Origin: Bacteroidales bacterium
Lineage (GTDB): Bacteria > Bacteroidota > Bacteroidia > Bacteroidales > GCA-2748055
Direction: 5' to 3'
Length of the DNA stretch: 47,834 bases
NCBI GenBank assembly: GCA_023135955.1
Contig: JAGLSB010000509.1
Span: forward strand, 1-47,834
In this document: positions 6,628 to 46,307 of the stretch, in pieces
How the letters are laid out: every line of letters starts with the position of its first letter
How positions within the stretch are numbered: the stretch's first letter is position 1
Translations under genes and position numbers: made by a program
Notes under the pieces: model-generated
The model's database searches: none
The model's input: the letters and a program-made list of their open reading frames with translations, nothing else
What the model was told of the DNA's origin: nothing

Positions 6628-6675
6628 TTTGGCAAACTTATGTAAAACCTACTGTTTTTATTTCTGCTATTATTG
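6628..6675 (+). promoter_or_regulatory. 19-bp locus element plus -7 box, copy 1 (symporter)
   Basis: TTTGGCAAACTTATGTAAA at 6628-6646, then TATTATTG at 6668, 40 bp from the start of the element (consensus TAnnTTTG, one mismatch). It would drive the symporter with a leader of about 245 nt. The rest of the 297-bp gap shows no gene. Confidence 0.5.
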
Positions 6676-6922
6676 CAACAATAGATTTTATGTAAATTGT
6701 CATTGACAAATCATGAATTTATTCTTGATGAAGTAGAATTTATATTTTTAAGGTAAACTCAATTTTGCTACTAGCAGTATTCTGATAGATAGCAATTGAA
6801 ATATCAGGGCAACCCAATTTTGTTTGAAGAATGTTAATGAACTCCAATTGATTCTAGTGGTAGAAGGCTTTGATTTTAAAGATATTGAATATTAATAAGT
6901 AATATTTCTAATATAACTTATA

Positions 6923-8521
6923 ATGAGTAATATAGTTTATGACATGTTGGTGGTGCTTCTTTATTTTACAGTTATTATCGTAGCTGGGTATTTAGTAAGT
7001 AGAAAACATCGCAGTGACAGTGCCAGTGACTTTCTTACCGGGGGCCATACACTAAATTGGTTTAAAACCGGATTAACCCTTATTGCAATGTCTATCGACA
7101 CTGGGATTATGGGAGTAGCCGGAATCGGTTTTGTATGGGGGCTTGCCATTCAACCAAACGCCTTGAATTTGTGGATTGCCGCTCCTTTGGCAGCAATGTT
7201 TCTTATTCCCATCTATTGGAGGTCTAAAATTGTTACTACTCCCGAATTATTGGAAAAACGGTTTAATGTATACAGCCGGTCATTGTTTTCCGGATTGATG
7301 ACGCTTTATAATATTATTGTTCTGGGAACCTCTATTTATTTAGGAGGGTTGATCCTTCAGACCATTTTTGATTGGAATTTACTTATTTCCTGTTCGGTCA
7401 TCATGGTAGTGGTCGCAATTTATGTTATGATGGGTGGAATGAAAGCCGTTCTTACCATTAATATTTACCAGGCAGTATTTATAACATTAACACTCATGAC
7501 CGTTGGGATCACTTGTATTGTGAAGGTTGGTGGTCTTTCAGAATTGTTTAATAGTGATGTTCTTAGTGCTTCCGGGGCTCCACTGGCAAGCACTATGCTT
7601 CCTTTCGATTTAAGTTTAAAAAGTAAAATGTGGTATGCCATGCCATCCGGATTAATATGGGGCGCATTGGCTGGCACAGCTTGGATTGCCTGCAATTTTG
7701 GAATGGTGCAACGTCTATTAGCTGCAAAGGATGAAAAGAGTGCCCAGAAAGCAATTCTTTTTACCGGAGCCGGCCATGTGTTTACATTCTTTTTCGCGTA
7801 TGCCGTAGGTGTAAGTATCCATTTATTACAACCAGAACTTGCAAAAGCAGATGAATCATACATGTTTGCAATAATGAACTTTTTTCCTGTGGGTATAAGA
7901 GGTTTATTGATCGCGGGTTTAATCGCTTCATTAATATCAACCATCGATGGATTATTGACCTCATCAGGAACACTTATAACTACGGATATCTTTCTCAGAT
8001 TTTTCAAGCCAAAAGCAGACGATAAGACTATTAAACGATTCGCCAGAATTGTACAGGCTGTTGTTCTATTAATAGCCTTTTTTATCATTCCGGTTGCGGC
8101 TAAAGAGCAAACAGTTACCCGACTAATTCAGGACTTGATATCAATACCCCTGGGAGTTATGATTGCACTCTACCTTATTGGTGTTTTCAGTACAAGGGCT
8201 ACACCATGGGCTGCATTTATTGGCGCCTTAACAGGAACTGTTGTTGCCATTTCAATTTATTTCTTTTTGCCTGAAATTAACTTTTTAAACAGGGGATTCT
8301 TTGGTTTCATAACCGTTGTTATAACGACTATTAGTCTTAGCTTTTTTGAAAAAAGACAAAGTATTGAAAGTCTTGAGAACCTTACCGTATTTACACTTTC
8401 AGATGTAAAAGGTCCCTGGGTGGGACAGGGGGCTTGGAGCAATCTATGGAAATGGATACTTGGGATCATTGTGGGTTGGTTTGTTTTAACTACCATATGG
8501 GAATTGCTAGTATCTCATTAA
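6923..8521 (+). CDS. Sodium:solute symporter (SSS family), probable sugar transporter
   Basis: A 532-residue polytopic inner-membrane protein with roughly thirteen hydrophobic segments. SSS-family features include the first helix (MLVVLLYFTVIIVAGYLVSR), SDSASDFLTGGHTLNWF with the family's early FLAGR-like loop, the TLIAMSIDTGIMGVAGIGF segment and GLIASLISTIDGLLTSSGTL, which contains the conserved Ser/Thr sodium-site region. It probably imports a monosaccharide or small glycoside with Na+. It lies between the regulator and the GH130 gene, consistent with uptake of products released by the secreted enzymes downstream. Sugar specificity cannot be read from sequence. Confidence 0.92.
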   Translation: MSNIVYDMLVVLLYFTVIIVAGYLVSRKHRSDSASDFLTGGHTLNWFKTGLTLIAMSIDTGIMGVAGIGFVWGLAIQPNALNLWIAAPLAAMFLIPIYWRSKIVTTPELLEKRFNVYSRSLFSGLMTLYNIIVLGTSIYLGGLILQTIFDWNLLISCSVIMVVVAIYVMMGGMKAVLTINIYQAVFITLTLMTVGITCIVKVGGLSELFNSDVLSASGAPLASTMLPFDLSLKSKMWYAMPSGLIWGALAGTAWIACNFGMVQRLLAAKDEKSAQKAILFTGAGHVFTFFFAYAVGVSIHLLQPELAKADESYMFAIMNFFPVGIRGLLIAGLIASLISTIDGLLTSSGTLITTDIFLRFFKPKADDKTIKRFARIVQAVVLLIAFFIIPVAAKEQTVTRLIQDLISIPLGVMIALYLIGVFSTRATPWAAFIGALTGTVVAISIYFFLPEINFLNRGFFGFITVVITTISLSFFEKRQSIESLENLTVFTLSDVKGPWVGQGAWSNLWKWILGIIVGWFVLTTIWELLVSH

Positions 8522-8600
8522 TTTATTGAGATGTTTTGAAAGTATCAGAAAATTTCATTTCAAAATCAGTTTATTAACTAAGTTTTTTTTAATTCACTTT

Positions 8601-8647
8601 TTTGGCAGCATTATATATTTTTAGGAATTAAGAAGTTTTAATATTTG
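8601..8647 (+). promoter_or_regulatory. 19-bp locus element plus -7 box, copy 2 (GH130 gene)
   Basis: TTTGGCAGCATTATATATT at 8601-8619, then AATATTTG at 8640-8647 (one mismatch to TAnnTTTG), 39 bp from the element's start. The GH130 ATG is 166 bp further on. The remaining part of 8522-8813 is AT-rich with no gene seen. Confidence 0.45.
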
Positions 8648-8813
8648 CAAGTAGAAAATATACACCTATCAACTGTCGGGTTTTTTTTGTAAAATTCAAA
8701 AAAGGTACTTTCGATTTCGATAGGGTTTTATAATTCAGAAGCATTAGGATTGGAAAATTTTAGACCAAAAATTGCTTCAGAAAATCTTCCAATAGATAAT
8801 AAAATTGAAATTG

Positions 8814-9818
8814 ATGAGTACTCAGCATGAAATAAAAGTGTCGAAAGACATAAATGGCCTTGAAAAAAGAGACGCTACGAAAATATTAAGCAGACATCCG
8901 CAAAATCCTTTATTGCATATTAGTGATTTTCCGGGATGTGCCCAGTTATACAATCCTTCACCCGTAATGTTTGGTGATGAAACGATACTCTTAGTTTCTG
9001 TTGTCGATCACGCCGCTACCGATGGCTTTGGCAGAGATGTTGGCCAGACACGAGTTGCTCGTAGTATGGATGGCGTCAATTTTACCCTTTCTGAAAAGAA
9101 TTTTATCGAACTCCAAAGTGATGAATATCCTTATCCCCTCTATCATCACTTCATCGACAATCGGGTTACAAAAATTGATGACTGGTATTATATCATTACA
9201 CCTGTAATGGTGAAAGGATTCGATTCCCCTGTGGGAATGCTGGGGCGGACAAAAGATTTTGAATCTTACGAACGTATCGATATTATTACCCAGCCTAAAA
9301 ACCGGGGAGCATCTCTCTTTCCTGTAAAAATTAATGGCAAGTACTATAAATTAGATCGTCCTGGTGGCGGTGATGGTGGAGATGGTGACATATGGATAAG
9401 TGCCTCAACAGATTTAGTACACTGGGGAGAGTTTAAACCGGTAATTGCAGCAGGATATCGTTTCTGGAATGTTCAAAAAATAGGACCAACTCCACCGATA
9501 AAGACGAAGGACGGTTGGCTGGATATTATCCACGGTGTATTCTCTCCGGCCGGAGGAACCTACTATTATATTGGTGCAATTTTGCTTGATCTTGAAGAAC
9601 CCTGGAAAGTTATCGGTAAAACGAACAGCTATCTGATGATGCCACAGGAGGAGTATGAAAAACATGGAAATTGCGACAATACAATTTTTCCCTGTGGAGC
9701 CATTCCAAAATACGACATTGATGAACTATGGCTGTACTATGGTGCAACAGATTTCTCAATTTGTCTGGCAACAGGTTCCTTAAGTGGTATTGTTGATGCT
9801 TGTAAAAAAGGCCTGTAA
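8814..9818 (+). CDS. GH130-family glycoside phosphorylase or hydrolase
   Basis: From the ATG at 8814 the protein has 334 residues; a TTG three codons upstream (8805) is less likely. No signal peptide is present, so it acts in the cytoplasm. The five-bladed propeller pattern of GH130 is clear: AQLYNPSPVMFGDETILLVS near the start, KNRGASLFPVKINGKYYKLD, then KIGPTPPIKTKDGWLDIIHG at about residues 218-237, DLEEPWKVIGKT, and DNTIFPCGAIPKYDIDELWL with YYGATDFSICLATG at the end. Family members mostly phosphorolyse beta-mannosides, some hydrolyse them. Next to the symporter it may process imported disaccharides. Whether it is a phosphorylase here is open. Confidence 0.85.
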   Translation: MSTQHEIKVSKDINGLEKRDATKILSRHPQNPLLHISDFPGCAQLYNPSPVMFGDETILLVSVVDHAATDGFGRDVGQTRVARSMDGVNFTLSEKNFIELQSDEYPYPLYHHFIDNRVTKIDDWYYIITPVMVKGFDSPVGMLGRTKDFESYERIDIITQPKNRGASLFPVKINGKYYKLDRPGGGDGGDGDIWISASTDLVHWGEFKPVIAAGYRFWNVQKIGPTPPIKTKDGWLDIIHGVFSPAGGTYYYIGAILLDLEEPWKVIGKTNSYLMMPQEEYEKHGNCDNTIFPCGAIPKYDIDELWLYYGATDFSICLATGSLSGIVDACKKGL

Positions 9819-9907
9819 CATTCGGGCTTAATATTCATCCTTTAAAAAAGTTCAAAGCTATCTATCCCATTTTGGATAAAAATGAAATCTCAACAAATCC
9901 TGAAATT

Positions 9908-11713
9908 ATGCCAAAAATCACCCAAGTAAAATGGATCTCAATTCTAATCCTGTTTTCAATATTGATTGCTTCATGTGGGGAAAAGGAAATACCTGAAAAT
10001 AAATTTATTTACGCTAAAGATGGTCGCTTGTTTTTTCCTGATGGCAAGGAATTGTCCCTTTGGGGCGTAAACCTGCAACCTTGCTTGTCCTGGGAGTACA
10101 ATAGCTTGTTTAAATTAATTGGAGTTCCATTAAGAGCAGATAGTCTTAAACTGGCAACCGATAATGCCCTGGATGAGATCCAAAAAATGAACTGTGATTT
10201 AATCCGTTGTCATCTGACACCTTCCGACTTTACCGATAACGAGGGAAATCTGGTTGAAACGGTTTATCTTGACATCCTTGACTATATGGTTGCTGAAGCT
10301 TCTAATAGAGGAATTTACTCTTACATTACCTTTCTAAATACGAATATGGGTTTCGATATTGATGTTGATGAACCCAAAGATCATACCCCAAATTTTGTCG
10401 AAAATTCCTTTGGAGGTAAACTGGACCGTAAGCATCTTATTGAAAATGAGGACATAGTTAATAAATCAAAAAATTATATAAGCCAACTTTTAAACCGGGT
10501 AAATCCTTATTTAAAAACAAGCTACAAAAATACTCCAGCCATTGCTGTCTGGGAAATTAGCAATGAGCCTACCTATTACTCCTATAAGCAAGTGAAAGAA
10601 ACTCCCTATTATGAGGAGTTTAAATCGTGGGCATTAGGACAGGGATTGGAAGATACTGAAGAGGATTACGCCTCATATCGATATGATCTTGTATTGAACT
10701 ACATCAATGATATGTATGATGTAATACGCGAGACGGGAGCGGTACAGCCTATTGTTTGGAATTGTAACTGGAATAAAATGATCAATGGTCACGAAGAAAT
10801 TTTTGATGCCATTGGGATCTCTAAAGTTGAGGTCGTGTCATTTTGTAACTATCCCGGACAAAGTGTTTGTAAAAAACCATATACCAAAAATCCTGTTGAC
10901 CTTTCAGGTTACGACTTTTCATCCTTTTTAAAGAATTCATATACCAAAGAAGATTGGTATGGTTGGGCATTGCGGCCCGACTTTATGAAAAAGGCTAAGG
11001 TCGCCTATGAGTTTGAGATTTTCTACAATCAGAGTGCCTATTTATACCCTGCACAAGCATCATTCTTCAGGGCAATGGGTGTGCAAATGGCAAGTATGTG
11101 GCATTATAGTATGCCAAGGTACGCACCTTACAGAAATGGTTCACATCATTTAAGTCTGACCAGTACACCCCCAAAAGCAGCTTCTTATGCTGTTGCCGGA
11201 GAGTTATTTAGGTCCTTACCATTGTATCACGAATATGATACCGTTTCAACTACAGAAAAAGTGACTGAAAATTATATGTATTCCTATGAAAAGAATATTA
11301 GCATTTATAGCTCAGATGAAATGTATATCCATTCTGGGCCTGTTGATGATAATGAGTTGCCTGAGCCTTCCGGGAATGTAAAAAAAGTGATTGGCTTCGG
11401 AAACTCTCCCCTTGCTAAATACGATGGGAATGGTATTTATACTATAAATATTCAGGATAATTCGATTGAAATTGAAATAGAACCGAATACAGAACAATTA
11501 AAACCTCTTTGGGGAAAGGACTTTCTTGTTGGTCTCGTAACTCAACTAGATTATCTGACTCATCATTCATTTGAATTAAATCTTAAGGGCTGGGATGCTT
11601 CCAATTCTGTTATTTATCGATTGGAGAATGATGTTAAAACCAAAATAGAAGTTCTGGATAATTCACTCCTTTCATTTCAGGCTATTCCAGGAAAATATCT
11701 TATTGAAAAATAA
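9908..11713 (+). CDS. Clan GH-A glycoside hydrolase (GH5-like), lipoprotein; paralog A
   Basis: The ATG at 9908 gives 601 residues with a lipoprotein signal peptide (SILILFSILIASCGEK, lipobox Cys). An upstream in-frame TTG at 9872 would add a poor 12-residue extension. The catalytic domain is a TIM barrel: LSLWGVNLQPCLSWEYN, LIRCHLTPSDFTD, acid/base candidate Glu220 in AVWEISNEPTYY, and nucleophile candidates Glu368/Glu370 in VAYEFEIFYNQSAYLYP. It resembles GH5/cellulase-type enzymes in layout, but I cannot assign a CAZy family. Two paralogs occur at 15294 and 36280 with the same LxPSDFTD/LxPADFTD, NEP, YEFE and FYNQS signatures. It is followed 25 bp later by a sulfatase and is likely co-transcribed with it. 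Confidence 0.85.
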   Translation: MPKITQVKWISILILFSILIASCGEKEIPENKFIYAKDGRLFFPDGKELSLWGVNLQPCLSWEYNSLFKLIGVPLRADSLKLATDNALDEIQKMNCDLIRCHLTPSDFTDNEGNLVETVYLDILDYMVAEASNRGIYSYITFLNTNMGFDIDVDEPKDHTPNFVENSFGGKLDRKHLIENEDIVNKSKNYISQLLNRVNPYLKTSYKNTPAIAVWEISNEPTYYSYKQVKETPYYEEFKSWALGQGLEDTEEDYASYRYDLVLNYINDMYDVIRETGAVQPIVWNCNWNKMINGHEEIFDAIGISKVEVVSFCNYPGQSVCKKPYTKNPVDLSGYDFSSFLKNSYTKEDWYGWALRPDFMKKAKVAYEFEIFYNQSAYLYPAQASFFRAMGVQMASMWHYSMPRYAPYRNGSHHLSLTSTPPKAASYAVAGELFRSLPLYHEYDTVSTTEKVTENYMYSYEKNISIYSSDEMYIHSGPVDDNELPEPSGNVKKVIGFGNSPLAKYDGNGIYTINIQDNSIEIEIEPNTEQLKPLWGKDFLVGLVTQLDYLTHHSFELNLKGWDASNSVIYRLENDVKTKIEVLDNSLLSFQAIPGKYLIEK

Positions 11714-11738
11714 TTAAGTTTTATCATAATTCTGAGCT

Positions 11739-13337
11739 ATGTCAGTGCGTAAACAAGTAATCAGTATCCTTCCTGTAATTTTTCTTTCAACAGGATGTAG
11801 TGAATCAATTAAACAAGACCTCAAACCCAATGTGGTAGTTATGTATATCGATGATTTGGATTTTGATGAACTAGGCTATTATGGTTCGATAAATCTAACT
11901 CCGAATATTGATAAGCTTGCCAGTGAAGGAATGAATTTCACACGTGCATATGTTACATCTACTGTATGCACACCCAGTCGGTATGGTCTTGTAACCGGTA
12001 ATTATGCATCCCGGTCGATAGCCATTCAGGAAAATCCAGCATCCACTTGGCGAAATCGACTTTATCCGCCCGGAACCGATGCAAATGTTCATTTTAATTG
12101 TATTCTGACTCCTGGAGAAAAGACCTTTGGTAATTATATGCATGAAGCGGGTTATGTGACTGGTATGGTTGGGAAATGGCATATGGGCGGTAGCGCAAAA
12201 GGAGAATATATCTATAAAGATAGTGACGGCAATTTTACAAAGCCTAAAATACCCTTGAATAAGGAAGAAAGTTATGACAGTCCCTACAACCAACAGTCTA
12301 TTAAAGAGCATTACAAAACCATAACCAATTATATTAAAGAAAATTTCGGATTCGATTTTGTTGATGGTTTTTTTGAACAGAATGCTTCTGGTCTGCGGCA
12401 ATCAGGATATCCGGAAATTTATCAAAAACATAATCTGGAATGGATAACCGCCAACGGACAGAAATTTATTAGAGAAAACAAGGATATACCATTCTTTCTA
12501 TATTATGCTTTAACCCTGCCACACGGCGAACAAGGTGGGTTTAAAGAAAATATTGAGTCCTCCGAATTGACAATTACTCCTGGTGGAAGAATTGATAAAA
12601 TGCCTGAAACCGGTATGCCTGATAGAAACAAGCTATCTGAACGCTGCAAAGCAGCAGACTTAAAACCGGCATCGATGGCCATGATGTATGTGGATGATGC
12701 AGTGGGAGCACTTTTAAATACCTTAAAAGAAGAGGGACTGGAAGAAAATACGATTGTAATGTTTATCAGCGATCATGGAAATTATGCAAAACTGGCACTT
12801 TTTGAAGGTGGGGTCAGGGTACCATTTATTGTTAAATGGCCGGGGATTGTAAAAGCCGGATCATCAAATGACCAGATTATTGCAAATATTGATGTTACTC
12901 CAACCATTTTAGAAATTTCTGAGTCTAATAAAGAAATTAGTTTTGATGGAATTAGTTTTTTATCACTTCTAAAAGGAAGCAAGGAATCCATACGTGAAGC
13001 CCTGTTAATTGAAGTAGGGTATGCAAAGGCAATAGTCACGAAAGAATCCAAGCTTACCTACATCCGGTTTCCTGAAGAAGAAAAGGAAACTATTGAAGGT
13101 CATGGAGGAATAGACGGTATCAATTACAATGCCTCAAACGCAACATTTGCAAAACGTCAAAAATCCAATTATCCTGGTTATTGGGATTTAAACCAACTAT
13201 ATGATCTGGTAAACGATTCTGCAGAGCAGAAAAATATTTATTCCGATAACCCTGAAAAGCTTGAGGGATTGGAAGAACTTATGAAAAGGGAGCTAGATAA
13301 ATTGCCTCATACTTTTGGCGAAATAAAAGTAAAATAG
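11739..13337 (+). CDS. Sulfatase (S1 family), lipoprotein, Cys-type
   Basis: A 532-residue sulfatase with a lipoprotein signal (VIFLSTGCSES). It hydrolyses sulfate esters, here presumably on a polysaccharide or its oligomers. Metal ligands appear in YIDDLDFDELGYYGS, the formylglycine motif is VCTPSRYGLVTG with Cys77 as the residue to be oxidised, GKWHMGG supplies the conserved Lys and His, and SDHGNYAKLALFEGGVRVP carries the second metal site and a conserved Lys. The C-terminus ends LPHTFGEIKVK. It is a close relative of the catalytic part of the sulfatase at 19559 and a more distant one of that at 29899. The gap to the next gene is 4 bp. Confidence 0.95.
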   Translation: MSVRKQVISILPVIFLSTGCSESIKQDLKPNVVVMYIDDLDFDELGYYGSINLTPNIDKLASEGMNFTRAYVTSTVCTPSRYGLVTGNYASRSIAIQENPASTWRNRLYPPGTDANVHFNCILTPGEKTFGNYMHEAGYVTGMVGKWHMGGSAKGEYIYKDSDGNFTKPKIPLNKEESYDSPYNQQSIKEHYKTITNYIKENFGFDFVDGFFEQNASGLRQSGYPEIYQKHNLEWITANGQKFIRENKDIPFFLYYALTLPHGEQGGFKENIESSELTITPGGRIDKMPETGMPDRNKLSERCKAADLKPASMAMMYVDDAVGALLNTLKEEGLEENTIVMFISDHGNYAKLALFEGGVRVPFIVKWPGIVKAGSSNDQIIANIDVTPTILEISESNKEISFDGISFLSLLKGSKESIREALLIEVGYAKAIVTKESKLTYIRFPEEEKETIEGHGGIDGINYNASNATFAKRQKSNYPGYWDLNQLYDLVNDSAEQKNIYSDNPEKLEGLEELMKRELDKLPHTFGEIKVK

Positions 13338-13341
13338 TATT

Positions 13342-14721
13342 ATGAATTCAGCTAAGATTTTTATATTCTTAACGATATCTTTCTCCAATCTTTTGTGCTT
13401 TGGGCAGGATGGCTCGTACGATTTTTTCGACGGAACCGATATACAGACATATTGCATTATGACTTATGCAGAGGATCAAATAAAGGATGTACGAAAAAGT
13501 GATTTTTTGCTGACTATTCATGATGAAAATGGAAACTCAATAAACGATTCGGTAAATATTGAACTGGTTTCACATGAATTTGATTTTGGAACCGATTTAT
13601 TTAATTTTCATAAACTTGATAATTCCGATCCGGCACTGATTACTTCCCTAAAAGTTATCGACACCCTTTTTAATTCTGTAATTATTTGTGATTACTGGGG
13701 TACTAACCAGAATCAACTAAATGGACCCTTTAATTGGGATTCACCCGATTATGGCTTTCAGATTGCCGAAGATTACAAGAAAAGAGGGCGTTATCATGCT
13801 TTGATTTTTGGCTTTCCAAGGTGGTTGCATTATTTCGATACCGAAGAAAAGCAATGGGAAGTAATCGAACAACGATTTATGAATGTAGCAGGCAGGTATG
13901 GCGATTTGATTACGGAGATTGATGTTATCAATGAGTTTGTCAATTACCAATATTGGGATCAAAATGCCCATGCCCTGTATTTAAAAACTACTACTTTTCC
14001 TGATTTTGCGAAACCCGAGAACGGTCTTAGGGTGTTGAAGCTTGCAAAAAAACATTTTCCAAATGCCAGACTGGTAGTACTGGAAACCGGGATATGGAGT
14101 ATGAAAAATCCTGTTTTTCATGAAATTTACGATTACCATAAATATCTCATAGATCATAATGCCCCAGATTATTTTATTGGATACCAGGCACATTATTATT
14201 CTGATGGATTACCTTTCCAGGAGGGTTCCAGAAAATATGGCCCCAGAACTTTTATGATGGATGATATCAACAGCGCCATTGAACATATGGGTTCTCTTGG
14301 CAAGCCTATGACTATTACAGAGTTTAATCCGCCTTCAAGAAATAATCAAAACACCGACCCAGATCAACCCAGAATAAGTGACGAAGAAATTGCTGCCTGG
14401 GAAACCAACTTCTATACACTGATGTTTTCCAAACCCTATGTGTATGGACTTTCCAGATGGTTTACAGTTGATAACCTGGGTGGCAAAGGCATGGATGCAG
14501 GCGTGGTAACCGAAGAAGGAGAATTGAAACCAAATTATTTTGCATTAAAGAAGCTGATTAAAGAGAAATGGCATACAAGATGGGAAGGGAATGCAAATCA
14601 AACCATTTCTTTGAATGGATTTTACGGTACTTACAAAGTAAATATTGATGGGTTTGAAGAAGAAATAGTTGAACTAACCCAATTGAATACCTTACAAACA
14701 ATTATACTCCGAAAGAAATAA
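13342..14721 (+). CDS. GH10-type secreted glycoside hydrolase
   Basis: A 459-residue protein with a signal peptide ending near LLCFGQDG. After a small beta-rich N-terminal stretch (LLTIHDENGNSINDSVNIEL and EFDFGTDLFNF, the usual lead-in of GH10-like proteins) comes a TIM barrel with acid/base Glu198 in IDVINEFVN and nucleophile Glu327 in MTITEFNPPS. These two motifs match the WDVxNE and xTExD positions of GH10 xylanases. LSRWFTVDN and KPNYFALKKLI complete the barrel. It should cut an internal beta-linked backbone such as xylan; the true substrate may differ, because divergent GH10 proteins are common. It is tightly coupled to the upstream sulfatase. Confidence 0.85.
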   Translation: MNSAKIFIFLTISFSNLLCFGQDGSYDFFDGTDIQTYCIMTYAEDQIKDVRKSDFLLTIHDENGNSINDSVNIELVSHEFDFGTDLFNFHKLDNSDPALITSLKVIDTLFNSVIICDYWGTNQNQLNGPFNWDSPDYGFQIAEDYKKRGRYHALIFGFPRWLHYFDTEEKQWEVIEQRFMNVAGRYGDLITEIDVINEFVNYQYWDQNAHALYLKTTTFPDFAKPENGLRVLKLAKKHFPNARLVVLETGIWSMKNPVFHEIYDYHKYLIDHNAPDYFIGYQAHYYSDGLPFQEGSRKYGPRTFMMDDINSAIEHMGSLGKPMTITEFNPPSRNNQNTDPDQPRISDEEIAAWETNFYTLMFSKPYVYGLSRWFTVDNLGGKGMDAGVVTEEGELKPNYFALKKLIKEKWHTRWEGNANQTISLNGFYGTYKVNIDGFEEEIVELTQLNTLQTIILRKK

Positions 14722-14810
14722 AAAAAATGAGTATATGCTTAGAATATTTTCAATACATTCCTTGTTATTTCGCAAGGACATTAATGCATTCATTTGCTTA
14801 TAACAGAATT

Positions 14811-15092
14811 ATGAAACAGAAGCATATTTTATCAATTTAAATTCTAATTATCTGAATCTCGGTAAATCCACTATTTTCACAGGAAGTTACAGGTGAATTG
14901 AAAAAATGGCATAAGGTCACAATTAAATTTAACGGTTCTTTAACCAGTGAGACAAAAACCGATAATCCATTTTTGAATTCTGGCACAATCGGCTGGGAAC
15001 AAATCTTTGGCGAGATTTTATATTCTCAAATGGTGCTATTTTTAAGGACTTTTCAAAATACTGCTATTATAAGTCTTCTTTTGCTAATATAA
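14811..15092 (+). pseudogene. Decayed DUF5060-type glycoside hydrolase gene (N-terminal remnant)
   Basis: Reading one frame from the ATG at 14811 gives MKQKHILSI, stop, ILII, stop, then ISVNPLFSQEVTGELKKW and HKVTIKFNGSLTSETKTDNP without interruption. That is a signal peptide broken by two in-frame stops followed by the first half of a DUF5060 domain, the beta-sandwich found at the N-terminus of some secreted GH-A hydrolases. The similarity ends after about 65 residues (FLNSGTIGW), and a different frame continues briefly to about 15111. Everything downstream of that domain is missing. It was probably another hydrolase of this locus, lost by deletion and point mutation. Confidence 0.6.
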
Positions 15093-15154
15093 ACACCTCA
15101 GCTATTTAATGGACTGTATTTTTACCAATTATCGACTCTTCGAGCATAATTAAA

Positions 15155-15201
15155 ATTGGCTGTTTTTTAAATCTCATTGTAATACCAAATTACTAATTTT
15201 A
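15155..15201 (+). promoter_or_regulatory. Degenerate locus element plus -7-like box, copy 3 (GH-A/FN3 gene)
   Basis: ATTGGCTGTTTTTTAAATC at 15155-15173 keeps the TTGGC core but little of the 3' half. TAATTTTA, one base off TAnnTTTG, starts 39 bp after the element's start, at the same spacing as the better copies. It precedes the 15294 gene by 93 bp. Weak alone; supported by spacing and position. Confidence 0.3.
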
Positions 15202-15293
15202 TGAAATTCGATAAGGTCTGAGTTTTTACCATAGAAAATATTTCTTTGGTTCATACTGGATTTGAATTTTAAAAGGAGTTAACAATTAGTGAT

Positions 15294-19544: not shown

Positions 19545-19558
19545 AACTTGATAAAATA

Positions 19559-33366: not shown

Positions 33367-33374
33367 AAGGGAAG

Positions 33375-33405
33375 TTGGCGATTAGATGGCTATGATATAA
33401 TTTTG
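33375..33405 (+). promoter_or_regulatory. Possible conventional promoter before the GH51/79-like gene
   Basis: TTGG at 33375-33378, a 19-bp spacer, and TAATTTTG at 33398-33405. This fits the ordinary Bacteroidota promoter more than the 19-bp locus element. The ATG at 33439 follows 33 bp later. Confidence 0.4.
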
Positions 33406-33438
33406 CGGGAAAAGATATCAGTATTAATAACAAGAAAA

Positions 33439-36261: not shown

Positions 36262-36279
36262 TTTAAAAAGCCGAAAATT

Positions 36280-38025: not shown

Positions 38026-38073
38026 CGAATAAAGCCAGGTTTTGAATATAAATTTTTAAAGAATTCTTGAAAT

Positions 38074-39468
38074 ATGAAAAATAGAACCATTCTTAATCAT
38101 TGTTTACTCGGATTTGCTGTGTTATCCTCTTCATGCTTGTCAAAAAAAGATAACAAAAAAGAAGTTCCGGAAAGGCCCAATGTGGTAATAATCTTTTTAG
38201 ACGATTCCGGATTTTCAGATTTTGAACCTTTCCAGGGGTCTGAAAACATAACTCCAAATGTTAGCAAACTAGCGAAAGAGGGAACTGTTTTTACCAACTT
38301 CAGGGTTCCACAGGCCATTTGTTCTGCCTCCCGGGCAGCATTAATGACCGGGTGCTATCCAGGAAGGACTAAAGTATTTGGAGCACATGCACCAAGAGAG
38401 AAGGGTTTGGATCCTGAATTTGCTATCCTCTCAGAACAATTGAAGCTAAATGGCTATGCCACAGGATTCTATGGCAAATGGCACTTGGGAGATCAACCTG
38501 AAACCAGGCCTCATAATCGGGGATTTGATAAATCGGCCGGGTTAATGTATTCTAACGATATGTGGAAACATCATCCTTCAGATCCGGAATTTTGGGGTAA
38601 ATACCCACTCTCGTATTGGGAAAACGGAGAAATTAGTATTGAAGATGTTGATTCCTCAAAGCAAAAAATGCTTAGCAAATGGAGCACCGAATTTTCCTTA
38701 AATTTTATAGAAGAACACAAAGATGAACCCTTTTTTCTCTACCTGGCCTATTCAATGCCCCATGTACCCATCTTTTGTAGCGATGAATTTGAAGGAAAGT
38801 CGGGAAAAGGACTATACGGAGATGTGATTATGGAACTTGATGACGGAATAGGCAGACTATTGCACAAGTTGAAAGACTTAGGTTTGGATGAAAATACTAT
38901 GATCGTTTTTACCTCCGATAATGGTCCCTGGTCCGTATATGGAAACCATGCCGGCCGAACACCTTTTAAAGAAGCCAAAGCAACAAGCTTCGATGGGGGT
39001 TTAAAATCAGCACTGATTGTAAAGTTTCCCGGCAGGATACCGAAAGGAGAAACATCAGATAAATTTCTGTACTCCATAGATTTATTTCCAACAATTTGTG
39101 CTCTGACAAATAGTCCCCTTCCTGAAAATGAAATTGATGGCGAAAATATAGATAGTATCCTGACCGGAGAATCCGATATGTCCTATAAAAGACCATATTA
39201 TGCGTTTTCTACCGGAACTACTTTCGAAGGAGTTTTCTCTTCGGATGGACGATGGAAGTTGCATCTTCCTCACGGATACCGTTCAGTCAGGGAGTTCGGA
39301 AATGATGGCAAGCCCGGTAAGTATGATCAGAAAAATATTGAGTTAACACTTTATGATTTACAAAATGATCCTTATGAAACCATAGATGTAAAAGATAAAT
39401 ATCCTGAAATATTAGAAAACCTGTTGAAAAATGCAGAATTGCACAAATCCAGATTTTATTCCAATTGA
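38074..39468 (+). CDS. Sulfatase, arylsulfatase A-like lipoprotein with CxAxR motif
   Basis: A 464-residue sulfatase with a lipoprotein signal (GFAVLSSSCLSKK). Features: IFLDDSGFSDFEPFQGS, formylglycine motif AICSASRAALMTG with Cys83, FYGKWHLGDQ, FFLYLAYSMPHVPIFCSDEF and FTSDNGPWSVYGNHAGRTPF with SFDGGLKSALIVKFPG. The motif is CSASR, the Ala variant of C-x-P/A-x-R, which is accepted by maturases and found in characterised sulfatases. It follows GH-A paralog C, so each of the three GH-A genes is followed directly by a sulfatase, although this one belongs to a different subfamily from the other two. Confidence 0.94.
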   Translation: MKNRTILNHCLLGFAVLSSSCLSKKDNKKEVPERPNVVIIFLDDSGFSDFEPFQGSENITPNVSKLAKEGTVFTNFRVPQAICSASRAALMTGCYPGRTKVFGAHAPREKGLDPEFAILSEQLKLNGYATGFYGKWHLGDQPETRPHNRGFDKSAGLMYSNDMWKHHPSDPEFWGKYPLSYWENGEISIEDVDSSKQKMLSKWSTEFSLNFIEEHKDEPFFLYLAYSMPHVPIFCSDEFEGKSGKGLYGDVIMELDDGIGRLLHKLKDLGLDENTMIVFTSDNGPWSVYGNHAGRTPFKEAKATSFDGGLKSALIVKFPGRIPKGETSDKFLYSIDLFPTICALTNSPLPENEIDGENIDSILTGESDMSYKRPYYAFSTGTTFEGVFSSDGRWKLHLPHGYRSVREFGNDGKPGKYDQKNIELTLYDLQNDPYETIDVKDKYPEILENLLKNAELHKSRFYSN

Positions 39469-39534
39469 ATTCATTATCATCCTTCTCCGGAAAATCTACC
39501 TAATCTGATAAAAAGTTATTACCAATAATTAGTA

Positions 39535-39581
39535 TTTGGCAAGATTTTAATAGGAATATGCGTACCAGATATATATTTTTG
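39535..39581 (+). promoter_or_regulatory. 19-bp locus element plus -7 box, copy 5 (T9SS protein)
   Basis: TTTGGCAAGATTTTAATAG at 39535-39553 (good 5' half, weak 3' half), then a perfect TATTTTTG at 39574-39581, 39 bp from the element's start. The next gene's ATG is 35 bp downstream. Confidence 0.45.
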
Positions 39582-39616
39582 TAAAATGTCTTAAATAGTT
39601 GATAAGTCTGATTATT

Positions 39617-40921
39617 ATGCAAATAAAACTGATTCCCATACTGGTCGTAATGCAACTCATTACGAATTCATCCTATGCTCAGACGGACACCATAAGTGAG
39701 AATTTTAATAATATTTGCGAGCTAACCAGTACTCCGGGAAGAACATATGCTATTGAATATACAGGTGAGAATGAAATAAATTGGAGTATTAAAACCCTTT
39801 ATTCCTCCTCTTCATGGTGGGGTGGTTTAAATGATGATGGGAGTCATATTGATGGGACTATTCATTGTGGAAGCCTTCAATGGGATGAAAGTAACTCAGG
39901 CTATGCAAGAGCAATTCTTCCGAATGGAATCTCCTCCCTCTCATTCCAGATGGTATATGGGTTTCAATTGGTTGGAGGATATGTAAAGATAATGATCAAT
40001 GGGATTGAGATAGGCCGAACTGAAATTCTGGCAGATACAGAAGTGCATACCTACGACTTTCCTGTAAATGCTGCCGGTTCTCTTGATCTGGAGTTAATAC
40101 CTGTTGTAGAAAGCTCAATTCCTGGGGGGATTATCGTAGATAACCTGACAATTATAGAATCTGATTTGGAAACTCCGTTTTTTAGTGTAGAAAAACTGGA
40201 TGATTTTGATCCATGGATGGACACTCTTAGTAGTTCTTCTGAAAGTGTGCATTTACACTTGTTTGCTGAGCATTGTTTATATGTAAACGGAGAGTATGTA
40301 GAATATTTTGACCTGGCTGATGATGTGGATCTAACGATTGGATCTGTCATAGACCTTATTCCTGGCGATTCGATTATTCTATTCTACAATGGAACTGTTC
40401 TTCCGGGTGTCGGCCATACAACAGGAAAATCTGCCTTCGATCTGTATTTCCCGGCAAATATCAGCACAAATTCAATTGAATATGATACTTCTGAGGGTAT
40501 GGACACCCTGAATGGAGTTGTATCTTTTATTAATGGAAATATAGATTTAGATCTGGTTATATTTAAGATTTCTGATTTGAAAAATGAATACCATATTAAT
40601 TATAATTTTGAATCATTTAAACCAGAACCTATAGATACCGTAGCCACCGGTTTAGAAAAAAGGATTCAAAATCCTATTTCTGCAGTGAAATTATATCCTA
40701 ATCCAATACAGAATCACGCCTATTTTGAAACCAGTAAGAATCTGGATTATTTCGAATTATTTGATATGCATGGAAAGCGAATCTTTATTGAAAGAAATCC
40801 ACAACTGACCGGAGATGGGCATTACAAGCTGGATATTGAATCATTGGATATAGGTTTGAGTATTATACGTTTCACATATAAGGATAACACCTTTGATGCA
40901 CTGAAGGTGATGGTGCAATAA
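39617..40921 (+). CDS. T9SS-secreted protein of unknown function
   Basis: The ATG at 39617 gives 434 residues; a TTG six codons upstream (39599) is less likely. A signal peptide (VMQLITNSSYAQTD) and a T9SS tail (AVKLYPNPIQNHAYFE to the end) frame a protein of unknown role. Residues about 20-180 look like a jelly-roll domain (GLNDDGSHIDGTIHCGSLQW, GGYVKIMINGIEIGRTEI, GGIIVDNLTII) similar in pattern to carbohydrate-binding modules. A second beta domain follows (HLHLFAEHCLYVNGEYVEYF, IDLIPGDSIILFYNGTVLP). No catalytic motif is recognisable. It carries its own copy of the locus promoter element, so it is probably regulated with the enzymes and may bind the substrate at the surface. Confidence 0.75.
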   Translation: MQIKLIPILVVMQLITNSSYAQTDTISENFNNICELTSTPGRTYAIEYTGENEINWSIKTLYSSSSWWGGLNDDGSHIDGTIHCGSLQWDESNSGYARAILPNGISSLSFQMVYGFQLVGGYVKIMINGIEIGRTEILADTEVHTYDFPVNAAGSLDLELIPVVESSIPGGIIVDNLTIIESDLETPFFSVEKLDDFDPWMDTLSSSSESVHLHLFAEHCLYVNGEYVEYFDLADDVDLTIGSVIDLIPGDSIILFYNGTVLPGVGHTTGKSAFDLYFPANISTNSIEYDTSEGMDTLNGVVSFINGNIDLDLVIFKISDLKNEYHINYNFESFKPEPIDTVATGLEKRIQNPISAVKLYPNPIQNHAYFETSKNLDYFELFDMHGKRIFIERNPQLTGDGHYKLDIESLDIGLSIIRFTYKDNTFDALKVMVQ

Positions 40922-41412: not shown

Positions 41413-44400
41413 CTATTTTACAATATTCAGTTTGTGTGTAAGAACATCTTGTCCGCAGGTAACAGTTACATAATATAGTCCTGAATTAAAACCACTCACA
41501 TCTATAACTGTTTTGGAATCACCTTTACTATCAAGATATACAATCTTGCCAGTTATATCGATTATTTTAATTATCGGTTGCTTGCCAGATAAGTTTTCAA
41601 TATCGATATTCAGCTTGTCATTTGCTGGATTAGGATACATCCTGGATTGCAAGTTGAACTGATTTATTCCAACAGTCGATTTAACACTTATTGATACTTC
41701 CGCTGTGGCACTTTTTTCAGTGTCGTCTGCGAGAATTTGAAGCTTATAGTTTCCTGTACTGGCAAAAGTTACTTTTGTTGCAAGTGCAGCTGCATCAGCA
41801 AAGCTAACATTTGCTGCAGTTCCTTCAATTACGGACCAGCTGTAGACTAACTCGGATCCAAATGGTAATCCGTCATCGTCAACAGATGCTTCAACATCAA
41901 CTTCTAAAATATCAGTAATAGTTTTCTGAGAGAAAGTTACCGTTACAGTTGGAGCCTGGTTGCCATCAGGAATCATCTCAGTTAAGAAATCCAGATAATA
42001 AACTTTGGTAACTGACAGGTCTTCAGAAACAACCGCTAATTTATCGTCGAAGTTCATATAACCTTCCGTTCTTTCAAAACCGGCTTTATCAACCAATGTA
42101 GCTGTAGCTCCTTTAACAACTTCTATATTTCCCCAGAAAAGTTGAGGACTTGATCCCTGAACTAAATTCGAAATGGTATTATTGTCCTGGTCAACTTCAT
42201 AAATTGATGAGATAACAAAGGCATCACTCGCAGCAGATGCGGGATCAAACCTATAAGTTACCTTATTGATACCGTTCTGGGAAATAACTTCAATATAAAT
42301 AGAAGCTCCGACTAAAGTCTTAACCATCACCGTATCATAATTGAGTACCTGATAGGGCGCTAATTCTCCGTTTTGATCAATAATACTTGTGTTAGCCAGC
42401 GGAGGAGCAACTATATTTGCCATCACATCTTCCAATACAGCACCATAAGTGACTCCTTTAATTAAACCGGTTTCACCGTCAACTTCAAATGTAATACCTG
42501 AATTCTCAAGAGCTGTTAACATAGCATTATCATCCAATGGTAGATCTATAATCGCATACTTGGTCAAGTTCTTTCCATCAGTAGATACAACTATAAGGGT
42601 ATCGTCACCAGCCATATTTGCAGTCAGGTCCTTATCTAATCCACTGCTGCCATCAATTACCGATAAAGTCTGGCCTTCATCTGCTTTGCTAATATTATCA
42701 TAGAAGGTTTCAAGTGTTACAGCACTAAGATCTCCCTGAATGCTTTGAATGCCTTGATATCCAACACTTACAAGATATAGTGTGGATGTAACAGTTGATT
42801 TGTGAGCTGTAACAGGATCAAAAGTGTGACTTCCAATCCATTGGTATACGTTTGGATTTTCAGAATCCTGGGGATTTGATACCCACTCATCCCTGTTGCT
42901 TGTGCTGTCTGCGTCAGTATTTCCAGCAAAAATATTTGGTTTACGGCGCATTGACAAATGATAACCCCAGTCTGTTCTTTGATGATCTCCTATCCACATA
43001 CTCTGCCATGTTGGGATTCCAGCATCTCCAACCATATCAACTAAAGTATAATCTGTAGGATCAGCATTAACCGCTTTGCCTCCGTCAATAATTGTATCAT
43101 TATCGATCTTGAATAAGTATAGATTTATCCAATGCATTCCCATTTGCAGATCCTTCGCTAAGTTTTCTACACCCCAGGTATTGAAGTTTACACCCAACGC
43201 ACTAATCCAGTCTCTGCCATTATTTGTGATAACATCACTATTTTCTATGGCATCATTTTTAACCCATTTTGTTTTAATCGGATTTCCAATTACAAATACA
43301 TCACCCGGGTCAACTATTGGGTTTACTAATGGGTCAAAATAAAGTTTAGCTGGATTAGCAAGCCATTCAAGGGTGTCGTCACTGAATTTGTATCCTGGAA
43401 CGTAACCATATTTATATCTGTGTTCAAATCCGCTTTGGGTAATATCGGAACCAATTGCACCAATAGCATTTGCGGGGGTTGCCCCATCACTTGTCCATGC
43501 AAATAAGTAATTCGACATATCAAGGGGTACATCTCCGACATTTACAAATTCATAGTAATGTCTTTTTGCTCCGGTCACTTCAGAAATGAATGGTTCTGCT
43601 ACATTTAACTGCAGATCCTGAGGTCTTTTCTCAATTGAAAATAATACCGCATATGATACAACCACTGAACCATCTTCGGACGTTACCGTAAAGGTTGTTG
43701 TACGTTCCGCCTGGCTACCTGTTAAGCTGGTTGCCCTTTGTACTTCTATTTTAGAGTTAATATCCATTGGAATAGCTGTAAAAGCCGGAACACTCTTGAT
43801 TCCATATGGCAGGATAACCTGGTAGGCAGATGAAGTTGGACTGAATTTTGGAATTGTATCTCCCATCCACCCATCTAAATAATAGGGCTTGTCCGGCCAT
43901 GTTATGGCGCTCAATGACGCATTCTCTCCCTTTGCTATATCAAGAACAGATATATAATACTCTTTTGTAGATGTTCCATCCTCAGCAGTAACCATCAATT
44001 TATCACCATCCTTAACATCAACCCTTTCCAAATCATCTACATAATCAATAACCCAGTCAGCTTTAGGAGCTTTTTCAAGGTATAAAAACAGAGTGTCCAT
44101 TCTGGTGCCAAAAGGAACATTTCCTACGGTATCTATTCCGGGAATATTTTCAGTAACGAAATAAGGTTCCCCGCCCCAAACTTGCCCGTTAAAATCTTCA
44201 CTTTCAATTGCTTCATAGCGCATCCTTCTTTTAGGAAAGACGAGGGCCATATCCGTTCCGGGCTCAGCAACCTGGAGTGTGTAATCTTTTTCTTCGTAAA
44301 CATCACCACAAGCCATAAAACGAAGGATGTCTCCATCCCGAACTGTTGAATATGCTGAATCCGCTGATTCAGTATTATCTTCGTTATAAATCCATGCCAT

Positions 44401-45366
44401 ACCCGGGCCGATATCAAATTCATTAAGAATTGAATCGTGCTTCAGGATTCCCCATGGAACTGTTAGGGTATTATTAATATCATCGATAGTAATAGTACTT
44501 GAATTAAGATTTATGCTATAATTTCCATGAGTACCAACAGTTGTGTAAGGAGTAGATCTGTCAAAACGATTTAATTTGCTATAAGGAGGTATAGGTATCC
44601 ATTCTGAGTCTATAAGGTCAATACCTCTTGATTGGTCCCAGTTGGTATTTCCTTTGGTCACGCTTGACTTACGAACAAGAATATATTCATTAGAAGCAGC
44701 AGTAACTCCTGCGACATCAGATGGAGTATTATCCAAATTATCGCCAGAAGGATTCTTGGCAAGTCTTACCTGGTCCACCATAACAGAGTCGGTTCCACCG
44801 GGATAAACATAAAATAATACCGTAGCACCTAAACCGTTCCATAAATTACACATCCAGTCATAATCAACATCTATACTATCAAATCCAAACATTTCCAAAT
44901 CCGGGCGATTCCAGAATTCAGGCTCGCCGCCTTCAGGATAATGTATGGGAATGTAATGTTCATTCTCAAGAAATGCAGCTTTGTTCCATGTCCATCTTCT
45001 CCAATCGAGTTCATTCCCGTCATTTCCGGGAGAGTCCCACACATTATTAACAAGCAGGGTCTGATTAGGTTCTATTTTTACATCTGGCAGCCGTTTTCCA
45101 AACCTTGCATCTGGAAAAATTTTTGGTATTGGATCCGTCCAGTCAAATGTACTGGCATTGACCCAACCCGGGACAACACCTAGCCAGAAATTTGACAAAT
45201 TTAAGGCAGTATCACCCTTGTTTGTCAACTCATAATAGGCACTATATGGTTCACGTCCATAATACTCCGTAAATATGAGAGCTGTAACACTATCTTGCTG
45301 GGCCATGACCGGCATGCCCATCAGGAAAATCAATAGTAAGAGAATAATTTTTTTTTTCATCAGCAT
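41413..45366 (-). CDS. Giant T9SS-secreted protein with lamin-tail-like and PKD-like domains
   Basis: A 1317-residue secreted protein on the minus strand. It begins MLMKKKIILLLLIF, and the second Met (45360) is an equally good start. The signal peptide ends at PVMAQQDS. Two lamin-tail-like domains are visible: SVTALIFTEYYGREPYSAYY near the start and FISEVTGAKRHYYEFVNVGD near residue 635. Between and after them are DUF5018/cadherin-like beta-sandwich repeats (VTAEDGTSTKEYYISVLD, TVTSEDGSVVVSYAVLFSIE, VSEDLSVTKVYYLDFL). Near the C-terminus is a PKD-like domain (ELVYSWSVIEGTAANVSFAD) and a T9SS tail (SRMYPNPANDKLNIDIENLS). No enzyme motif is seen. It is probably a surface adhesin or polysaccharide-binding scaffold. 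Two promoter elements of the locus type lie upstream on the same strand, so it likely belongs to the same regulon. Confidence 0.85.
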   Translation of the reverse strand: MLMKKKIILLLLIFLMGMPVMAQQDSVTALIFTEYYGREPYSAYYELTNKGDTALNLSNFWLGVVPGWVNASTFDWTDPIPKIFPDARFGKRLPDVKIEPNQTLLVNNVWDSPGNDGNELDWRRWTWNKAAFLENEHYIPIHYPEGGEPEFWNRPDLEMFGFDSIDVDYDWMCNLWNGLGATVLFYVYPGGTDSVMVDQVRLAKNPSGDNLDNTPSDVAGVTAASNEYILVRKSSVTKGNTNWDQSRGIDLIDSEWIPIPPYSKLNRFDRSTPYTTVGTHGNYSINLNSSTITIDDINNTLTVPWGILKHDSILNEFDIGPGMAWIYNEDNTESADSAYSTVRDGDILRFMACGDVYEEKDYTLQVAEPGTDMALVFPKRRMRYEAIESEDFNGQVWGGEPYFVTENIPGIDTVGNVPFGTRMDTLFLYLEKAPKADWVIDYVDDLERVDVKDGDKLMVTAEDGTSTKEYYISVLDIAKGENASLSAITWPDKPYYLDGWMGDTIPKFSPTSSAYQVILPYGIKSVPAFTAIPMDINSKIEVQRATSLTGSQAERTTTFTVTSEDGSVVVSYAVLFSIEKRPQDLQLNVAEPFISEVTGAKRHYYEFVNVGDVPLDMSNYLFAWTSDGATPANAIGAIGSDITQSGFEHRYKYGYVPGYKFSDDTLEWLANPAKLYFDPLVNPIVDPGDVFVIGNPIKTKWVKNDAIENSDVITNNGRDWISALGVNFNTWGVENLAKDLQMGMHWINLYLFKIDNDTIIDGGKAVNADPTDYTLVDMVGDAGIPTWQSMWIGDHQRTDWGYHLSMRRKPNIFAGNTDADSTSNRDEWVSNPQDSENPNVYQWIGSHTFDPVTAHKSTVTSTLYLVSVGYQGIQSIQGDLSAVTLETFYDNISKADEGQTLSVIDGSSGLDKDLTANMAGDDTLIVVSTDGKNLTKYAIIDLPLDDNAMLTALENSGITFEVDGETGLIKGVTYGAVLEDVMANIVAPPLANTSIIDQNGELAPYQVLNYDTVMVKTLVGASIYIEVISQNGINKVTYRFDPASAASDAFVISSIYEVDQDNNTISNLVQGSSPQLFWGNIEVVKGATATLVDKAGFERTEGYMNFDDKLAVVSEDLSVTKVYYLDFLTEMIPDGNQAPTVTVTFSQKTITDILEVDVEASVDDDGLPFGSELVYSWSVIEGTAANVSFADAAALATKVTFASTGNYKLQILADDTEKSATAEVSISVKSTVGINQFNLQSRMYPNPANDKLNIDIENLSGKQPIIKIIDITGKIVYLDSKGDSKTVIDVSGFNSGLYYVTVTCGQDVLTHKLNIVK

Positions 45367-45469: not shown

Positions 45470-45517
45470 CAATGTTAAGAAAAAATAGTAATTGATGGTT
45501 TATATAAATTTGCCATT
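45470..45517 (-). promoter_or_regulatory. 19-bp locus element plus -7 box, copy 6 (LTD-domain gene)
   Basis: On the minus strand AATGGCAAATTTATATAAA (45517 to 45499), then TAACATTG (45477 to 45470), 40 bp from the element's start. The LTD-domain gene starts about 104 bp downstream in the same direction. Confidence 0.5.
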
Positions 45518-45665: not shown

Positions 45666-45713
45666 ACGAATTATTTTGTAAGATAAATATCGAATTTGTA
45701 TAATTCTGCCAAA
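45666..45713 (-). promoter_or_regulatory. 19-bp locus element, copy 7 (upstream of copy 6)
   Basis: On the minus strand TTTGGCAGAATTATACAAA (45713 to 45695), with TAATTCGT 40 bp from its start (45673), only a partial -7 match. It lies 196 bp upstream of copy 6, so it may be a second promoter or an additional operator for the same gene. Confidence 0.35.
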
Positions 45714-45719
45714 AATTAG

Positions 45720-46073
45720 ATATCAAATGTTTTTCAACAGATTTTTATCTGCCTTTAGTTCCCTTTTATTTCCTTTGAATTAAATAGTCGTTGGTTTTGA
45801 TATAAATTTCAAGCTGTTTCCGGTAATTTTCTGTGGCAGGTTGATTTCTTCCTCTTTAAAACAGAGCCTTATTAGGCTCAATTTAACCAATCTAAATATT
45901 GCAATTTTCTGAAAAGTGTTAAATTGTTTATACCTTAACTTTGTTATGTATATTTGAGCACATAATATGATGCGAAATCTTATTTATTGGTTTTTATACA
46001 TCAGATGAATTGTCAACAATTGAAAGCCTGGATAGCAAGAAAGTAAATGCGCGGAATCTATATTTTGGCTTAA
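45720..46073. other. AT-rich part of the divergent intergenic region
   Basis: This is the middle of the roughly 960-bp gap between the divergent LTD-domain and fasciclin genes. No gene or RNA is evident here. The gap as a whole holds three copies of the locus promoter element (two facing left, one facing right) and a sorting-domain fragment. Confidence 0.4.
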
Positions 46074-46151
46074 ATGAAAATAGACGTTTCATTTCTTCCT
46101 GCCGGAATTTATTTTTTTGCTCTTTCAATTGGACGCGATCAGCACAGTTGA
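46074..46151 (+). pseudogene. Fragment of a T9SS C-terminal sorting domain
   Basis: A 25-codon frame encodes MKIDVSFLPAGIYFF followed by ALSIGRDQHS. The string DVSFLPAGIYFF is the standard core of a T9SS type A tail (DVSxLxxGxYxL), found at the end of the full-length proteins in this window. An in-frame stop precedes it and no larger gene is attached, so it looks like the last trace of a deleted secreted protein. The match is short and could be chance. Confidence 0.35.
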
Positions 46152-46259
46152 ACGCATGATTATCAGGAGATAGATAAAATATCTTAAAGTATGTGGCAAG
46201 GAACTACGGATTGTGAGAAATGTATAGAAAAAAAGGAAGCGGTAATTGTTAAAATATAA

Positions 46260-46307
46260 TTTGGCAAGTTTATGTAAATTTCACTTGCTTAAAAGGCTGT
46301 AATTTTG
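46260..46307 (+). promoter_or_regulatory. 19-bp locus element plus -7 box, copy 8 (fasciclin gene)
   Basis: TTTGGCAAGTTTATGTAAA at 46260-46278, differing from copy 1 at only two bases, then a perfect TAATTTTG at 46300-46307, 40 bp from the element's start. The ATG of the fasciclin gene is 18 bp downstream, an ideal promoter position. Confidence 0.6.

Follow-up and report, generated by a model that had tools for sequence, protein, structure and literature searches.

Contig JAGLSB010000509.1 of a Bacteroidales bacterium (assembly GCA_023135955.1), analysed here from end to end (47,834 nt; hereafter the window), carries a sulfatase-rich polysaccharide locus in which several gene blocks are preceded by a 19-bp element with the consensus TTTGGCAnnnTTATrTAAA, followed 39-40 bp from the element's first base by a TAnnTTTG box, the -7 promoter motif. 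Element and box together are enriched in the window, the good sites are all oriented toward the next gene, as the initial annotation of this DNA had stated, and a gene for an AraC-type regulator (5624..6625, plus strand) stands at the start of the locus. The element probably serves as operator for an activator of the AraC type, the most likely one being the cupin-AraC protein of 5624-6625 itself, which would act in class II fashion on the sulfatase-rich locus; this assignment is a prediction from sequence.

Copies of the element and their boxes

Inspection of each of the eight coordinates listed in the initial annotation bore out its central observation, with a good element at seven of them, and six copies lie within 0-2 mismatches of the consensus (6628, 8601, 24876, 46260 and, on the minus strand, 45517 and 45713). 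Two of these are free of mismatches: the copy at 6628..6646 (+), which begins 3 bp past the stop of the regulator and is followed by the box TATTATTG (6668-6675, one mismatch), and the copy at 46260..46278 (+), whose perfect box TAATTTTG (46300-46307) stands ahead of a protein with ATGs at 46326 and 46332. The element at 24876..24894 (+) has one mismatch and a perfect box, TACTTTTG (24915-24922), ahead of the sulfatase gene at 24987. Two mismatches are found both at 8601..8619 (+; box AATATTTG, 8640-8647, one mismatch), ahead of the GH130 gene at 8805, and at 45499..45517 (-; box TAACATTG, 45477-45470, one mismatch), ahead of the gene for a 1317-aa protein of the type IX secretion system (T9SS) class, 45366-41413. 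The copy at 39535..39553 (+) keeps TTTGGCA and is weak in its right half (four mismatches), with a perfect box, TATTTTTG (39574-39581), ahead of the T9SS protein at 39599. A further site, overlooked in the initial annotation, lies at 26543..26561 (+; three mismatches), with the box TAATTTTA (26582-26589, one mismatch) ahead of the sulfatase gene at 26738; it was recovered by a matrix built from the seven good sites and is outside the training set of that matrix.

The accompanying claim that a box follows at 39-40 bp in all eight cases holds, with at most one mismatch, for seven. It fails for the element at 45695..45713 (-; one mismatch), where TAnnTTTG is absent at +39/+40 (three mismatches) and which is possibly a second operator of the 1317-aa T9SS gene. 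Both this copy and that at 15155..15173 (+) had been marked as weak at the outset; the latter is a doubtful copy with the TTGGC core only, scoring 7.1 bits, a value also reached by several coding positions, with TAATTTTA at 15194 as a box of one mismatch. A weak candidate at 15006..15024 (+; TTTGGCGAGATTTTATATT), ahead of 15294, has no box at the correct distance, and another at 45897 has a perfect box, yet scores 8.4 bits.

A box with at most one mismatch is expected by chance at 2.8% of intergenic positions and is found at +39/+40 in 7/8 sites, giving a binomial p of about 1e-10, an optimistic figure in that the box belonged to the original observation. Across nine sites (the seven core sites, 26543 and 15006), +39/+40 holds a box in seven, while each other offset from 19 to 79 does so in at most two; the spacing is thus fixed, as for a site that adjoins or replaces the upstream promoter hexamer. 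That the copies are chance similarities of AT-rich sequence, selected by eye, is scarcely credible, although two counts taken alone would allow it. The 19-mer by itself is only mildly enriched in the window at up to three mismatches (8 matches, one of them at 4767 to the left of the locus and without a box, against 3.2 expected; 8 were reached by 2 of 100 shuffles), and exact TTTGGC-N33/34-TAnnTTTG occurs five times in the genome, the same number as its backward control. However, three of those five exact matches sit on the window contig, in 1% of the genome, and the joint presence of element and box is far more restricted. At up to two mismatches the 19-mer has 33 matches genome-wide, against 21 for the backward pattern, and six of the 33 are in the window; a box with at most one mismatch stands beside five of these six and beside none of 24 elsewhere (Fisher p 4e-5; 24 of the 27 off-window 19-mers were compared, the other three being without a locus). 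Set against the eight off-window matches outside open frames of 80 aa, the window's 5/6 still gives p 0.003. The genome-wide search for motif plus box that the initial annotation had proposed as a check, allowing three mismatches over 22 positions in 4.6 Mb, returned six distinct full promoters (24876, 8601, 46260, 6628, 45517 and C420:8305), five of them in the window, and none in backward controls. Likewise, when each of the seven good sites was left out of the matrix in turn, it ranked first or second among non-training window matches, with 0-5 equal or better matches in 295 kb of other contigs; eight positions in the window, the seven training sites included, score at least 20, against two in those 295 kb. 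These ranks, together with the recovery of 26543 from outside the training set, also speak against chance.

At the level of the full promoter with up to three mismatches, the proposal that the element is specific to this locus stands, with a qualification for two places in other contigs. The C420:8305 site lies just downstream of an AraC-type gene. On contig C338, which carries a paralog (52% identity) of the GH5-like enzyme of the locus, the best-scoring match (ATTGGTAAGATATTATATG) has a perfect box at +40 and lies about 80 bp ahead of that paralog; its element reaches 8.3 bits and its total 17.8, and 13 matches of at least 17 occur in the 295 kb of other contigs. This weaker site may be an outlying member of the regulon.

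The candidate activator and its proposed mode of action

Ten sites, picked by likeness to the motif and including two weak copies, were aligned; at positions 1-8 and 11-18 of the 19-mer, seven or more of them agree. The site is asymmetric and bipartite, its half-sites are one helical turn apart, and its orientation toward the gene is uniform. AraC/XylS class II operators, such as those of MarA/SoxS, XylS and RhaS, are asymmetric bipartite sites of about 20 bp that are read by two helix-turn-helix (HTH) motifs and adjoin or overlap the upstream hexamer. The bipartite layout is alike in the window; the letters differ, and the downstream element is here the Bacteroidota -7 box TAnnTTTG. Since it is asymmetric and its 19 bp hold two conserved cores at a distance of one turn, a layout suited to a single two-HTH domain, the element is best read as a class II operator, for which the 5624 protein is the probable binder. 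As with operators of the AraC/XylS type, the regulator gene lies inside the locus that it would control. The protein is a one-component regulator of 333 aa with an N-terminal cupin/AraC-binding domain and a C-terminal double HTH (Pfam HTH_18, 55.9 bits, and HTH_AraC, 41.4 bits, both above cut-off; AraC_binding, 26.3 bits); relatives of solved structure, by sequence, are AraC-type DNA-binding domains, including those of a hybrid two-component protein, RamA and SoxS. Among the 17 HTH_18 matches across the genome, it is the sole one on the window contig. A weak copy of the element lies ahead of the regulator gene as well (ATTGGGAAGTATATATTTA, 5505-5523, +; 9.8 bits), with the box TAACTTTT (one mismatch) at +39, and self-control of the gene is possible.

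A plausible mechanism can be outlined. A single domain with two HTH motifs would read one 19-bp site, with TTTGGCA contacted by one HTH and TTATrTAAA, a helical turn further downstream, by the other; in XylS and its relatives, too, the second HTH is the one nearer the promoter. Bacteroides promoters are described as carrying a TTTG near -33 besides TAnnTTTG (PMC7366714), and the -7 box of Flavobacterium psychrophilum is placed at -12 to -5 (PMC9723704). In the promoters of the locus, the -33 position is occupied by the end of the element, which on the latter numbering would span about -52 to -34. From that position a bound protein would abut sigma region 4 and substitute for the missing -33 TTTG contact, which amounts to class II activation, and the 5624 protein would do so upon a sugar signal. 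Binding, the sugar signal, the direction of the effect, and the transcription starts on which the numbering depends are all inferred here.

A fixed spacing to the -7 box and the absence of a -33 TTTG might equally be expected if a dedicated alternative sigma factor used the element as its own upstream box. This is very improbable: the box downstream is TAnnTTTG, as is usual for the primary sigma factor, and a 19-bp element ending 20-21 bp ahead of the box would be long for a sigma contact. Further, the alternative-sigma motifs reported for F. psychrophilum differ from TAnnTTTG (PMC9723704). Quite improbable, too, is a repressive or architectural role, in which the promoters are blocked by the AraC or another protein, or the element is common to several unrelated proteins. 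Such a role would suit a site adjoining the -33 position, from which a bound protein might also obstruct polymerase, and a copy such as 45713 that lacks a box; against it, promoters without a -33 TTTG would be weak unaided, and a phase kept constant across several gene blocks is typically seen with activators. Other classes of site were considered and rejected. Sigma-54 promoters carry GG at -24 and GC at -12, 10 bp apart, whereas the consensus has T-R 10 bp after its GG and is followed by a TAnnTTTG box; a reading as an extracytoplasmic function sigma promoter was rejected as well. A Crp-like palindrome is not seen, since the element is asymmetric and lacks the inverted symmetry of TATGTT...AACATA. 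The Crp-like global sugar motif wwwTATGTTnTAnAACATAwww given in PMC3878776 is also found upstream of sugar-utilisation genes, but it is a palindrome. Among the matches listed from the open-access literature, with the motif logos and supplements of PMC3878776 outside the comparison, the site of the window is described nowhere.

A half-site shared with other AraC-type loci

In 84,980 genomes, the pattern TTTGGCWNNNTTATRTAAA-N20/21-TANNWTTG has four matches. Three, in Clostridia, Bacilli and Patescibacteria, were taken as chance; the only one in Bacteroidota lies in a metagenome-assembled genome of the Cyclobacteriaceae (locus L049). There the element starts 44 bp ahead of a 141-aa frame, which is followed by an AcrB-family gene, and the gene of a small AraC regulator (2348-2920, about 190 aa), in which no cupin domain was detected, ends 0.8 kb upstream of the element. 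The locus is read here as one of metal efflux; the heavy-metal domain match of the neighbour fails to reach the curated cut-off. Genomes of the phylum with relatives of the L049 AraC number 140 of 296, the genome of the window counted.

In the window sites the right half, TTATrTAAA, places TRTAA 21-22 bp ahead of the box, and T[AG]TAA is found at the same position in loci of these AraC relatives. Around the best 30 relatives (L103-L132), T[AG]TAA-N22-TAnnTTTG occurs 10 times, in 10 loci, two of them from one genus. The 29 other spacings between 10 and 39 together account for 14 (0.48 per spacing); the control of 295 kb of other contigs from the window's genome has one at spacing 22 and no peak. 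As the peak had been seen in the very loci in which it was counted, the next 40 loci of the list (L188-L227) were taken as a further sample. They hold six at spacing 22 (Poisson p 0.004), five at 21 and six at 43, where spacings apart from 22 average 1.5. A second half-site placed another 21 bp upstream would produce spacing 43, and tandem T[AG]TAA of this sort is visible in several loci.

The second recognition helix may account for this half-site. S-S-x-x-H-L-S is found there in the 5624 protein, in the L049 AraC, in 42 of 70 of its relatives, and in 2/16 other AraC domains of the window's genome (the helix profile used for the AraC domains of that genome and for the off-window loci was built from members selected for that helix). 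T[AG]TAA-22-box lies near 14 of the 42 helix-bearing loci and near two of the 28 others (one-sided Fisher p 0.009, post hoc). Small regulators of the L049 type thus resemble the proposed system in having T[AG]TAA 21-22 bp ahead of TAnnTTTG at part of their loci, in the match of the L049 site to the window element, and in the helix. They differ in that the full TTTGGCA is not conserved, in that tandem T[AG]TAA about 21 bp apart is seen at several of them, and in that the L049 locus holds efflux rather than sugar genes. A pairing of the left half with the first HTH was also considered and was unsupported, L103 being the case in point.

With the initial annotation, then, a class II site and an AraC-type binder remain the favoured explanation, now supported by the L049 element, the 22-bp peak and the link to the helix, and also by the place of C420:8305 next to an AraC gene, while the choice of the 5624 protein as that binder is inferred. 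More broadly, there is perhaps an even chance that Bacteroidota share an AraC-type class II layout in which T[AG]TAA, read by a second HTH with the S-S-x-x-H-L-S helix, replaces the -33 box at a fixed distance of 21-22 bp upstream of TAnnTTTG, and which is used by AraC subfamilies (sugar-type cupin-AraC proteins and small metal-type AraC proteins) that differ mainly in the left half-site. A regulon of this kind fits a known class; a T[AG]TAA-22-box layout common to AraC subfamilies is the more novel possibility. The -33 element is described as hard to find globally in the phylum (PMC7366714). If the layout is general, it accounts for working promoters without a -33 element and offers a handle on the prediction of AraC regulons, including those of regulators that have so far lacked known sites.

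Another AraC-domain activator, either a hybrid two-component system (HTCS) or an AraC protein encoded past the contig end or elsewhere, might bind the element instead and leave the 5624 protein a bystander. This is unlikely, though less so than the rivals above. Ten of the 17 HTH_18 matches in the genome fall in frames of 772-1407 aa, taken as hybrid systems by their length, and the contig ends inside the locus. The predicted HTCS operators of Bacteroides polysaccharide loci in PMC3878776 are likewise those of an AraC-type domain and stand, as here, ahead of several blocks of one locus. However, the HTCS motifs of PMC3878776 are direct repeats spaced 21 bp apart on average, for which binding by dimers is proposed, whereas the window has single asymmetric 19-bp elements, and the regulator proposed for them is of the one-component cupin-AraC type. 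Column counts in the aligned upstream flanks revealed no conserved second copy near -21, so that the HTCS direct repeat was rejected, and no HTCS gene was found on the window contig, which ends inside the locus. T[AG]TAA-22-box was counted in 13 stretches of the window's genome around its own AraC domains, of which 10 belong to the long-frame kind. It is present there twice, against a mean of 0.6 for other spacings (p 0.13), in each case on a contig with a short AraC gene (C833 and C691), and the 5624 gene itself lies within the locus, 3 bp from the first site. The two occurrences have the form TGTAA-22-TATTTTTG (L237, 605, minus strand, on C833; L238, 2284, minus strand, on C691); one lies about 180 bp downstream of its short AraC gene and the other about 55 bp ahead of its own.

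Within the order, a scan of 393 genomes at spacing 21 with up to two mismatches gave 18 sites in 17 genomes, against eight for the backward pattern. Two are in the window, and of the 16 others eight fall within open frames of at least 100 aa and eight outside. One of those outside (L157) starts 33 bp after an AraC gene, an arrangement like that at 6625/6628. Another (L161) lies 46 bp ahead of a gene for a small HYC-containing protein, which shows weak similarity to the protein following the L049 site (24% over 78 residues, pairwise E 2e-5), and a 21-bp direct repeat (GACAAAATTATACAA / GACAAAATTATATAA) is present there; the 12.5-kb stretch of L161 yielded no AraC gene. The L161 direct repeat (GACAAAATTATAnAA, 6077-6142) stands ahead of TAnnTTTG.

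Several observations weigh against the 5624 protein as binder or against the wider layout. Searches at E 1e-30 revealed no ortholog of the regulator among the 27 other genomes of the family or, with the five best candidates of each genome scored, among the 392 others of the order; a scan of genome contigs by peptide pattern, which reaches close relatives only, left none confirmed. The regulator's own upstream region holds just the weak candidate at 5505, and matrix scoring gave no convincing site ahead of 15294 or near 29899. Since the contig ends inside the locus, a further regulator may lie past 47834. Around the best 30 relatives of the L049 AraC, recurrence is confined to the right half and its spacing and does not extend to the full TTTGGCA element, and the L103 AraC, 65% identical to that of L049, has a different left half. 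The 22-bp spacing was first spotted by eye in those same 30 loci, and in the 40 further ones the peak is weaker and is equalled at spacing 43. Similarly, 28 of the 70 relatives lack S-S-x-x-H-L-S, having mostly S-S-V-A-Y-L-S or S-N-V-A-H-L-S, and the helix link is driven by the first 30 loci (9/14 vs 1/16, p 0.001), the 40 further loci giving no significant difference (5/28 vs 1/12, p 0.41). The AraC of L157 lacks the helix, and this, along with the missing AraC gene of L161, counts against a simple rule.

The locus and its surroundings

The window is the whole of contig C456, 1% of a 4.6-Mb genome in 856 contigs that is 88% complete and that belongs to a Bacteroidota on the evidence of genes and promoters. 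The proposed target blocks on the plus strand (6923..40921) encode an SSF transporter (a sodium-solute symporter), a GH130 enzyme related to mannoside phosphorylases, GH5-like and GH10-like enzymes, nine sulfatases, and several proteins bearing a T9SS sorting domain. On the minus strand, the T9SS-sorted protein of 1317 aa (41413..45366) would be the target of the 45517 and 45713 elements. The rightmost protein of the locus, with its first in-frame ATGs at 46326 and 46332, runs off the contig, which stops within the locus at 47834. The operator and regulator proposed here would serve a locus containing nine sulfatase genes. In its genome, sulfatase-family matches number 143 in 4.6 Mb, a high count, and 10 of 17 AraC-type domains lie in long, hybrid-system-like frames.

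The substrate can be guessed at from the relatives of GH130 and GH5 mannanase, and is possibly a sulfated mannan. At E 1e-30, no relative of the GH5-like enzyme was found in any of the 392 other genomes of the order; within its own genome it has two paralogs of 51-52% identity. The GH5-like proteins (window 9872-11713, window 36280-38025 and L045 9050-10819) are weakly similar to solved mannanases. To the left of the polysaccharide locus lie mutS and two tRNAs, as well as a Gp49-like (DUF891) and HTH_3 gene pair (504-1146) that is likely a toxin-antitoxin pair.

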